Shown: positions 9,806 through 12,362 of the stretch, in pieces
Position numbering within the stretch: position 1 is the first letter of the stretch
Layout: each line of letters begins with the position of its first letter
Assembly (NCBI RefSeq): GCF_025252405.1
Contig: NZ_CP104307.1
Span: 4,092,001-4,156,000 of the forward strand
DNA length: 64,000 nucleotides
Direction: 5' to 3'
Source of the DNA: Flavobacterium sp. TR2
GTDB taxonomy: Bacteria; Bacteroidota; Bacteroidia; Flavobacteriales; Flavobacteriaceae
Notes under the pieces: model-generated
What the model was told of the DNA's origin: nothing
The model's database searches: none
Seen by the model: the letters and a program-made list of their open reading frames with translations, nothing else
Position numbers and translations under genes: made by a program

Positions 9806-9833
9806 AAAACCTCGATCCTAAAATCGAGGTTTT
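9806..9833. terminator. Bidirectional intrinsic terminator
   Basis: AAAACCTCGAT-CCTAAA-ATCGAGGTTTT is a perfect 11-bp stem with A/T runs on both sides. It lies between the convergent ATPase gene and the 77-aa gene and can stop both. Confidence 0.85.
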
Positions 9834-9848
9834 TCCATTTTATAAACC

Positions 9849-10082
9849 TTACTCCTCACTCAAATAAGGATTCAAAATCTCTGCCAATTCGTTGAGCCAA
9901 TAATAATTGTCTTCAAAATTGGTTAGTCCAATTTGGAGGGTTTCGTGTTGTCGCATTATGCCGAGCGCTAAAATGCAATTTACTTGTCTTAAGATTTTAG
10001 CCATATCTTCGGGAGCTATAATATGGTTAAAAAAATCAATCAGCCTTGTTTCGGCTTCTTTGGAAAAGGTGTTGTTTTTCAT
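9849..10082 (-). CDS. 77-aa hypothetical protein
   Basis: A small soluble acidic protein with predicted helices: AETRLIDFFNHIIAPEDMAKILRQV, then a hydrophobic ALGIM segment, and an acidic C-terminus (NPYLSEE). I do not recognise the family. It is supported as a real gene by a good promoter at 10220-10248, a structured leader at 10106-10181 and a terminator 16 bases after its stop. There is no membrane segment, signal peptide or cysteine cluster (one Cys only). The opposite-strand frame at 9907 is a shadow. Confidence 0.6.
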   Translation of the reverse strand: MKNNTFSKEAETRLIDFFNHIIAPEDMAKILRQVNCILALGIMRQHETLQIGLTNFEDNYYWLNELAEILNPYLSEE

Positions 10083-10085
10083 AAA

Positions 10086-10216
10086 GTGAAGAATTTAAGA
10101 AAAAACCCTCATACCTTAGCAGTCTTACGCTTCTTCACGGCGTCAAAGTCCTTTCGGAGCTTTACTACATAGCACGAGGGCAAATTTTATGTTGTCTTAA
10201 TGTGAAGATTTAAGAA
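10086..10216. repeat. Imperfect direct repeats flanking the structured RNA
   Basis: GTGAAGAATTTAAGAA at 10086-10101 and GTGAAGATTTAAGAA at 10202-10216 differ by one base insertion and bracket the RNA candidate. They look like a long target-site duplication, or like paired leader elements. Confidence 0.55.
10106..10181 (-). ncRNA. Candidate structured RNA, three-way junction, in the leader of the 77-aa gene
   Basis: Read on the minus strand, the outer helix P1 pairs CCCUCGUGCU with GGUAUGAGGG (10 bp). Its G-U wobbles would be C-A mismatches on the other strand. After a small internal loop, P2 pairs GUAGU with ACUGC. Two hairpins follow: AAAG(C)UCC-GAAA-GGACUUU with a GNRA tetraloop, and ACGC-CGUGAAGAA-GCGU. 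A run of six U follows P1, so it may terminate. It lies between a TTTC-N17-TACATTTG promoter and the ATG at 10082. Riboswitch, attenuator or independent small RNA are all possible. I cannot match it to a known class. Confidence 0.6.
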
Positions 10217-10219
10217 CTT

Positions 10220-10248
10220 CAAATGTAAGAAAACTTTTTAAAAAGAAA
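10220..10248 (-). promoter_or_regulatory. Promoter of the structured leader and 77-aa gene
   Basis: On the minus strand TTTC (10248-10245), a 17-base spacer and TACATTTG (10227-10220) match the Bacteroidota -33/-7 consensus. Transcription would start near 10213 and give a leader of about 130 nt. Confidence 0.65.
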
Positions 10249-10537: not shown

Positions 10538-10710
10538 CAATTAAAAAAATAATTGCCTCCAGCTTTAGATGGAGATCTACTAGAGCGCTATAAAAATGGC
10601 TTTAGCAAAAATGCGCAATTTGGCTAAAGCCTTTCTTTTATCAACATTATCGAGTCCCCTAGTTGAAACTAGGGGCTATTGATTGCTAATCTTTGTGGAG
10701 CTGCTTGCGG
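10538..10710. repeat. Hairpin-array unit, copy 1
   Basis: About 173 bp, directly repeated at 10852. It contains the hairpins CTCCAGCTTTAGATGGAG, GGCTTTAGC...GGCTAAAGCC and CCCCTAGTTGAAACTAGGGG, and ends in GGAGCTGCTTGCGG. Between the copies lies another hairpin, CCTCTGGTTTCAACCAGAGG. The 10250-11110 gap holds only such repeats. Confidence 0.85.
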
Positions 10711-10851
10711 ATATTTGCAAAAACAAACTATTCGAAAAAAAAACGAGACATTTTTCAAGCTGAGCAATCCCAAAGCTTCACGGGAAATACCGCAATCATT
10801 TTAGAACATAGCCTCTGGTTTCAACCAGAGGAACGCAAAGATTATGGTCAT

Positions 10852-11027
10852 TCAAATTAAAAAAATCAATTGCCTCCAGCTTTAGATGGAGATCTACTAG
10901 AGCGCTATAAAAATGGCTTTAGCCAAAATATGCAATTTGGCTAAAGCCTTTCTTTTATCAACATTATCAAATCCCCTAGTTGAAACTAGGGGCTATTGAT
11001 TGCTAATCTTTGAGGAGCTGCTTGCGG
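10852..11027. repeat. Hairpin-array unit, copy 2
   Basis: Near-identical to 10538-10710 along its full length, including the three internal hairpins. Differences are mostly single bases, for example TAGCC for TAGCA in the second hairpin, where the change restores pairing. Confidence 0.85.
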
Positions 11028-11110
11028 GTAGAGATTTATTTCGCATTTTCACTATTGCTCGGGTTCCTTACAGCTAAATGGCGAACTTTATTTTAGTCTA
11101 ACAACAAAAA

Positions 11111-11671: not shown

Positions 11672-11899
11672 ATGCAAGCAATTAACATCACAGCATATAC
11701 AGAAGATGCTTCTCAAATTGAAGCTGTAAAAGCTTTTATGAAAGCACTAAAAATCAAATTTGAGATCGCAAATGTAAAACCATATGAGCTATCTGACGAA
11801 CAACAACATATATTAAATGATCAAGTTGTTTCAGATAAAAATCTCTACACTGATGCTGAATCTCTTTATACCGATTTAAAAAAGAAGTATGAATTATAA
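11672..11899 (+). CDS. Antitoxin of a type II toxin-antitoxin pair
   Basis: A 75-aa protein resembling the DUF2683-type antitoxins found with ParE/RelE toxins in Bacteroidota. It has an N-terminal segment INITAYTEDASQIEAVKAFMKALKIKFEI that could form the DNA-binding or dimer part, then a charged helical C-terminus (YTDAESLYTDLKKKYEL) that should wrap the toxin. It is translationally coupled to the toxin by an 11-base overlap. An inverted repeat on its promoter suggests autoregulation. Confidence 0.8.
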   Translation: MQAINITAYTEDASQIEAVKAFMKALKIKFEIANVKPYELSDEQQHILNDQVVSDKNLYTDAESLYTDLKKKYEL

Positions 11900-12188
11900 G
11901 ATTATAGTTTCTCCAATTGCATTAAAAAATATTGAAGAAGCTGTTGAATATTATATTTTAAAAGTTAGCAAAAAAGTTGCCTTAGATTTTCTTGATGATT
12001 ATAAAAAAGCTTATAAAACCTTACAGCTAAATCCTTTCTTTCAATTTCACGATACTAATTATCGTTATCTTCCACTTAAAAAATTTCCTTACGTCGCATT
12101 TTTTATTGTTGATGAATTATCAAAAACGGTGTTTTTAAATGCAGTTTTTCATACTTCTCAAAATCCCGAAAAATATCCTGTAAAATAA
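11889..12188 (+). CDS. RelE/ParE-family toxin
   Basis: A 99-aa protein with the ParE/RelE fold pattern: MNYKIIVSPIALKNIEEAVEYYI, a long helix through VALDFLDDYKKAYKTLQLNP, then RYLPLKKFPYVAFFIVDE and a final strand VFLNAVFHTSQNPEKY. The 'R..P...FPY...F' segment is typical of ParE-like toxins. Whether it cuts mRNA or inhibits gyrase cannot be decided from sequence. The full-length frame suggests an active module. Confidence 0.85.
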   Translation: MNYKIIVSPIALKNIEEAVEYYILKVSKKVALDFLDDYKKAYKTLQLNPFFQFHDTNYRYLPLKKFPYVAFFIVDELSKTVFLNAVFHTSQNPEKYPVK

Positions 12189-12200
12189 AGAGCAAAATAA

Positions 12201-12362
12201 ATGCGAAATCTAATGAAAAATACAAATTCTCTCCTAGCCCTGATCGAAACGGCATCTCCCGATTTAGAAAAACAAGGCTTTTTAGCCGTAGTTTTTGTTG
12301 ATCGGGAATACAGTGAAGAGCAGGACAAATATTTTGAAAATCCTAAATTTTACTGCTCCTAA
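12201..12362 (+). CDS. 53-aa ORF behind the toxin, possible gene remnant
   Basis: An ATG 12 bases after the toxin stop opens 53 codons (MRNLMKNTNSLLALIETASP...FENPKFYCS), with normal-looking composition and a hydrophobic FLAVVFVDREY core. I do not recognise it. It ends abruptly and no continuation appears in another frame, so it may be a truncated gene or a small third member of the operon. Confidence 0.4.
   Translation: MRNLMKNTNSLLALIETASPDLEKQGFLAVVFVDREYSEEQDKYFENPKFYCS

Follow-up and report, generated by a model that had tools for sequence, protein, structure and literature searches.

A small folded RNA encoded on the minus strand of the Flavobacterium sp. TR2 chromosome, directly before a 77-aa gene, carries two short guides, each complementary to two sites, one upstream of the RNA (T1) and one where the gene begins (T2), and the same anatomy recurs in the relatives of this RNA, where guides and targets covary. 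The locus, which lies in the 64,000-nucleotide stretch of DNA analysed here (the window; NZ_CP104307.1, positions 4,092,001 to 4,156,000), is very probably a chromosomal, multi-copy antisense module of the C4 type that blocks translation of the 77-aa protein. In phage P1, cleavage of a longer transcript yields the C4 RNA, which acts on icd/ant and so helps to silence the antirepressor operon. On this reading, an Rfam family known just as an sRNA would gain a testable role, and C4-type antisense control would be extended from proteobacterial phages to chromosomes of the Flavobacterium group and to Bro-N/KilA-N prophages.

The c4-2 RNA and its gene in the window

An Rfam scan of the window placed a c4-2 RNA (RF02944, typed by Rfam as an sRNA) at 10181-10103 (-), a member of the family by score (52.3 bits against a gathering score of 41) that covers the full model, positions 1-79. 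The Rfam clan CL00128 unites C4, c4-a1b1 and c4-2, and at overlapping matches the scan gives the best clan member only, which here is c4-2. Flavo-1 (RF01705), a family with which a sequence-only reading of this DNA had proposed a comparison, occurs separately, at 12232-12331 (+) with 47.3 bits. The minimum free energy fold of the minus strand (-37.4 kcal/mol, z -2.09; as good in 6 of 200 shuffles) contains the P1, P2, GAAA hairpin and ACGC/GCGU hairpin which that reading had drawn. The plus strand, folded as a control, gave a z of -0.34, with folds as good in 72 of 200 shuffles; the fold is therefore strand-specific, and the structure first described is confirmed. The RNA forms a three-way junction with a short hairpin 2 and a guide-bearing hairpin 3, as in C4-type RNAs (Table 1). 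In the c4-2 consensus, UAUGG and CCUAA face each other and are accompanied by a GAAA loop, together presumably the 11-nt GAAA-tetraloop receptor and its partner, of which the window RNA has a variant.

No description of a function or target of c4-2 was found in the literature searched, which excluded the family's source paper. That paper is reportedly Weinberg 2017. Among the papers listed in the searches, one mentions RF02944, within a table only.

Table 1 Features of the c4-2 unit on the minus strand of the window, in order of transcription.
Feature	Position	Strand	Basis
Promoter -7-like box TACATTTG	10220..10227	-	Sequence; motif of Bacteroidota type
T1, upstream target near predicted transcript 5' end: a-site UCUUA 10215-10211, b-site UCUUCAC 10208-10202	10202..10216	-	Complementarity to a' and b'
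c4-2 RNA (RF02944), three-way junction, 79 nt	10103..10181	-	52.3 bits vs gathering score 41
P1 5' strand, pairs with 10114-10105	10172..10181	-	Covariance-model alignment and fold
UAUGU, 5' half of element resembling 11-nt GAAA-tetraloop receptor (family consensus UAUGG/CCUAA)	10167..10171	-	c4-2 consensus; presumed receptor
Hairpin 2, GAAA tetraloop at 10155-10152	10145..10164	-	Covariance-model alignment and fold
Hairpin 3, variable guide in loop	10127..10143	-	Covariance-model alignment and fold
b' guide GUGAAGAA in hairpin-3 loop	10131..10138	-	Complementary to b-sites; covariation in relatives
a' guide UAAGA in junction after hairpin 3	10123..10127	-	Complementary to UCUUA of T1 and T2
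GCUAAG, 3' half of receptor-like element	10115..10120	-	Covariance-model alignment
P1 3' strand	10105..10114	-	Covariance-model alignment and fold
T2, target at translation start: a-site UCUUA 10100-10096, b-site UUCUUCAC 10093-10086	10086..10101	-	3 nt before ATG
77-aa gene, no Pfam or NCBIfam match	9849..10082	-	ORF
Terminator-like hairpin closing one-gene unit	9806..9833	-	Sequence

Together, positions 10230-9806 of the minus strand form a one-gene unit in which a TACATTTG box, which we take to be a Bacteroidota-type promoter -7 motif, is followed by T1 (15 nt), the RNA (79 nt), T2 (16 nt), the 77-aa gene and a terminator-like hairpin. The first description was accurate for the box (10227-10220), for the U6 run that follows P1, for the ATG at 10082 and for the direct repeats on either side of the RNA (10216-10202 and 10101-10086). 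These repeats are explained by the loop of the second hairpin (10138-10131), because both are reverse-complementary to it, over 7 nt at the T1 b-site (10208-10202) and 8 nt at the T2 b-site (10093-10086). Guides that match both an upstream site and a site at the downstream ORF start, as in C4 systems, are thus present in the window, and they recur in relatives. The guide helices are short and AU-rich, with predicted duplexes of -13.5 kcal/mol for T1 (random 25-mers from the window averaged -7.4, and 156 of 4000 were as strong) and -14.3 kcal/mol for T2 (96 of 4000 as strong). A second c4-2 copy in the host genome precedes a paralogous 77-aa gene and has a different guide with its own matching T1 and T2. 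For each of the two host-genome guides, the exact two-part target occurs at exactly two sites in 5.1 Mb, flanking its own RNA, a count that is no more than chance since reversed control patterns likewise gave two genome matches per search.

The 77-aa protein has a predicted three-helix structure (mean pLDDT 78.4), with no match to Pfam or NCBIfam profiles, no similar fold in the PDB down to an E of 0.001, no relatives found among phages, plasmids or IMG/VR, and no alignment to P1 Icd. None of the 120 matches listed, out of 132 protein matches in all, has a Pfam domain, and the named organisms among the matches are Flavobacterium or close kin; one match, 86% identical, bears the name Flavobacterium johnsoniae. 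No antirepressor gene follows it; the 77-aa gene is succeeded by the terminator-like hairpin and a convergent gene. Elsewhere around the locus, two very similar stretches of about 170 bases (TTGCCTCCAGCTTTAGATGGAG...) were seen by eye between the RNA and a cupin gene (about 10544-10720 and 10867-11030), and two adjacent small genes at 11672-12188 (+) resemble, also by eye, a RelBE-type toxin-antitoxin pair.

Guides and targets across the genus

Across a sample of 150 genomes of the genus, c4-2 was found in 27, at 105 places and with up to eight per genome; all 105 were retrieved and 104 scored, one having no GAAA anchor. An ORF of at least 40 aa starts within 45 nt downstream in 98 of the 104 scored copies, and among these 98 a guide match of at least 6 nt was present for T2 in 92, for T1 in 96 and for both in 91, with at least one match missing in seven. 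Over 64 unique guide regions, the mean match was 7.02 to the RNA's own T2 versus 4.39 for other pairs, and 7.86 to its own T1 versus 5.30; none of 2000 permutations reached the observed mean, for T1 or T2 alike. The hypervariable guide address tracks its own targets. An extended set, in which 31 of 36 further places from family and phylum searches brought the total to 136 copies (123 with the anchor and an ORF of at least 35 aa), gave a matched T2 in 116 and a matched T1 in 121 of the 123. The 64 distinct guide regions of this one genus sample make up a natural set of covarying guide-target pairs. Selection against cross-reacting guides within genomes was not significant (14 cross pairs against 19.6 expected; 321 of 2000 shuffles were as low).

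Copies follow two layouts, type A and type B, the latter with 20 copies in the extended set. Among copies with both matches, 74 of the 96 of type A have a T2 match that stops 2-3 nt short of the ATG, whereas in 18 of the 19 of type B it overlaps the start codon, to which the junction guide of this type pairs. Of the 102 type A copies with a T1 match (103 examined), 80 have a TAnnTT(T/C) box whose end lies 11-13 nt upstream of T1; from a random position, such a box is met within 24 nt only 10% of the time. The junction guide varies in step with its targets: a' UAAGA is accompanied by UCUUA in T1 of 10/10 and in T2 of 9/10 type A copies, and a' UAGGA by UCCUA or UCCUUA in T1 of 78/86 and in T2 of 61/86, with the T2 a-site unrecognised in 19 of these 86. 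For the b'-T2 helix, 26 of the 29 type A rows, those with a 78-nt RNA, were aligned. The helix showed 79 cells with changes on both sides, compared with 25.8 in shuffles and 1-17 in versions slid out of register, and 89.9% of its cells were paired (57.4% shuffled; 29-45% with slid partners), while two of five measures did not exceed the shuffles (pairs with a double change, 135/500; pair types, 209/500). With all six helices combined, 95.4% of cells were paired. The earlier proposal of a regulatory leader RNA for the 77-aa gene is supported by this covariation and by the position of 98 of 104 genus copies directly before an ORF.

The same data bear on two other accounts of the RNA. The sequence-only reading had also offered an insertion, in which a mobile element would have left the direct repeats as target-site duplications. 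An RNA flanked by direct repeats and dispersed in up to eight copies per genome would suit such an element; however, the repeats vary between loci and, in 91 of 98 genus copies, can base-pair with the internal guide, they stand at narrow distances from the promoter-like box and the start codon, and the window copy and its relatives have common flanks, the flanking sequence being retained in close relatives. An insertion is contradicted by these locus-specific, guide-complementary repeats and is extremely improbable. Alternatively, c4-2 could be an independent sRNA that acts in trans, mainly on other mRNAs, in keeping with its Rfam typing and with the occurrence of tandem RNA copies that have no gene between them. 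Against this, a search for exact matches in the 5.1-Mb host genome found no further exact two-part target for either guide, and nearly all scored genus copies have an ORF directly downstream; we consider this account quite improbable.

Tandem c4-2 RNAs lie 42 nt (L181/L168, genome G511), 91 nt (L037, G113) and 97 nt (L183/L169, G578) apart, and there is therefore no room for an intervening gene. Separately, no intact downstream gene was found at five c4-2 copies (L050, L060, L069, L070 and L065), where the gene is broken or there is none.

Exchangeable proteins and phage copies

Outside the genus c4-2 is rare, being found in 7 of 199 genomes in a family search (host genome included) and in 11 of 395 genomes in a phylum search, where all but one of the 11 belonged to the same genus. 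For eight of the nine family-search copies outside the host genome, an ORF lies within 25 nt and the guide matches both sides over at least 7 nt, a raw count that includes one copy (L120) in which T1 and T2 are matched by different parts of the guide. The proteins behind five such RNAs (L114, L116, L118, L119 and L121) have no detectable similarity to the 77-aa family, and the same is true of two other protein families that stand behind c4-2 in the genus. Judged from sequence, the RNA module is the constant part and the downstream protein is exchangeable.

Copies were also found in prophages. For example, one prophage, which has a Mu-type portal, contains a weak c4-2 match (28.8 bits) immediately upstream of a Bro-N gene (PF02498, 3.8e-25); the guide of this copy is complementary to 13 nt of T1 and 8 nt of T2. 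In a second prophage (L112:5882-11867), c4-2 is followed by genes for proteins of 109 and 131 aa, by a KilA-N gene (PF04383) and by a phage tail gene, an order that in outline is that of c4-icd-ant in phage P1.

This variety of genes bears on the riboswitch that had been proposed earlier, in which the three-way junction with its GAAA loop and receptor-like element would bind a small molecule and the pairing of the guide with T1 or T2 would serve as the expression platform. In its favour are the compact fold with this loop and receptor-like element, and the two mutually exclusive partners of one guide. However, c4-2 stands before genes of at least four small-protein families that share no detectable similarity, as well as phage Bro-N and KilA-N genes, no metabolic or ligand theme was seen in the gene context, and the fold is accounted for as a guide scaffold, as in C4. 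The conserved logic is base pairing of a variable guide with the start region, positive evidence for ligand binding is absent, and a riboswitch is accordingly quite unlikely.

Among viral sequences, 78 IMG/VR loci with relatives of the Bro-N gene were taken, of which 70 had a usable start. Guide matches of at least 7 nt to both sites were found in 19 of the 70, compared with 0-3 in ten shuffles of the upstream bases, although simple sequence underlies a few of these matches, which may be due to chance (L233, L247). Further viral Bro-N loci were seen by eye at shorter match length, five of them with an equal upstream score (L192-L196). When 13 viral Bro-N loci were scanned with Rfam, four matched c4-2 with an E of at most 1, none of them reaching the threshold. 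A control of 30 class-wide Bro-N loci gave three with the layout, versus 0-3 in 20 shuffles; the layout is therefore a property of one phage Bro-N subset and not a general feature of Bro-N genes in the class. The type A core pattern was found in no IMG/VR contig and the type B pattern in one. Strong guide-T1-T2 matches were observed in five viral Bro-N leaders (L253, L258, L202, L198 and L191), three of which (L202, L198 and L191) had no c4-2 or C4 match in an Rfam scan; by their sequences, the five are candidates for new C4-type RNA families.

Proposed mechanism and family members without c4-2

The record of phage P1 annotates a1, b1, the C4 RNA, a2, b2 and the 73-aa icd in this order on one c4 icd ant mRNA. 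Its C4 RNA, an antisense RNA shared with phage P7 (RF01695; c4-a1b1, RF03163), resembles the window RNA in its three-way junction, in guides placed in the junction and in the hairpin-3 loop (for P1, by our own reading of its sequence), and in paired targets, one set upstream (a1, b1) and the other preceding a small ORF (a2, b2). In contrast to C4, which has a UUCG loop, the window RNA has a GAAA loop and a receptor-like element; the a and b sites of its module are nearly adjacent; b' varies in c4-2 of type A while a' is nearly constant; the window has no ant gene; and the c4-2 module occurs in several chromosomal copies per genome. In the portion of the text available, one paper describes b' of P1 C4 as partly overlapping the ribosome-binding site and the RNA as trimmed by RNase P to about 77 nt (PMC5320573). 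The Group 1 sRNAs of Acinetobacter baumannii, as presented in the same portion of that paper (PMC5320573), are likewise numerous chromosomal C4-like RNAs in one genome, with a variable a' region and apparent processing from longer transcripts, but they carry the proteobacterial C4 motif, and paired targets before paralogous small genes are not described there.

By analogy with phage P1, pairing in the c4-2 module would repress its gene. The predicted promoter would give a transcript ordered T1, c4-2 RNA, T2 and 77-aa gene, in which the folded RNA would display b' in the loop of hairpin 3 and a' in the junction that follows this hairpin. Both guides would pair with T2 and mask the region just upstream of the start codon, so that translation of the 77-aa gene would be blocked. 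T1, as a second copy of the start region, may keep the guides occupied up to the processing of the RNA, or may compete with T2 for them. We lean slightly towards a guide RNA that can act in trans over one that acts in cis only. Two facts count against this model, namely the absence of an antirepressor gene at the window and the many places of the 77-aa family without a nearby c4-2 (55 of 128).

A more speculative and rather unlikely extension is that these modules are chromosomal RNA-addressed switches derived from phage C4-type immunity that serve RNA-based immunity or phage sensing. A Flavobacterium genome would then hold up to eight switches, their addresses mostly different, and an invading element that shared an address would be subject to silencing in trans; alternatively, the invader might titrate the guide, so that the small protein is released to act as an alarm or arrest factor.

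The 77-aa family occupies 128 places in 26 of the 150 genomes, and c4-2 lies within 120 nt at 73 of them. Forty loci, representing 41 of the 55 places without c4-2, were examined. Ten of these (L123-L131, L143) have a T1 of the window type but a reduced RNA with no guide, and in all ten the predicted fold pairs T1 directly with the segment before the ATG over 8-15 nt. When T1 was shuffled, the mean fell below the observed value in 10/10 leaders, with 6-65 of 200 shuffles per leader reaching it, and this predicted direct pairing is suggestive rather than proven. At two further loci (L134, L135), a UCCUAAA at the 5' end is predicted to pair with UUUAGGA before the ATG. These twelve leaders perhaps represent a cis-only version of the switch, in which case one gene family may show two routes to the same outcome, one through an antisense guide and one in which the 5' end pairs directly with the start region. 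A lenient classing of 80 named loci (48 guide, 14 T1-only, 15 none and 3 without a start) was set aside as support, since shuffles alone yield 9-21 guide calls.

Expression of the 77-aa family held down by one of several means would fit a further group among the 40 loci. Fourteen of them (L136, L137, L144, L146, L148, L149, L151, L152, L155, L156 and L159-L162) adjoin a divergent small ORF that begins with M(D/N)ISEExF, the N-terminal motif of the HTH gene at L146, whose product, the one of the 14 compared with Pfam, matches HTH_3 at 4.1e-16.
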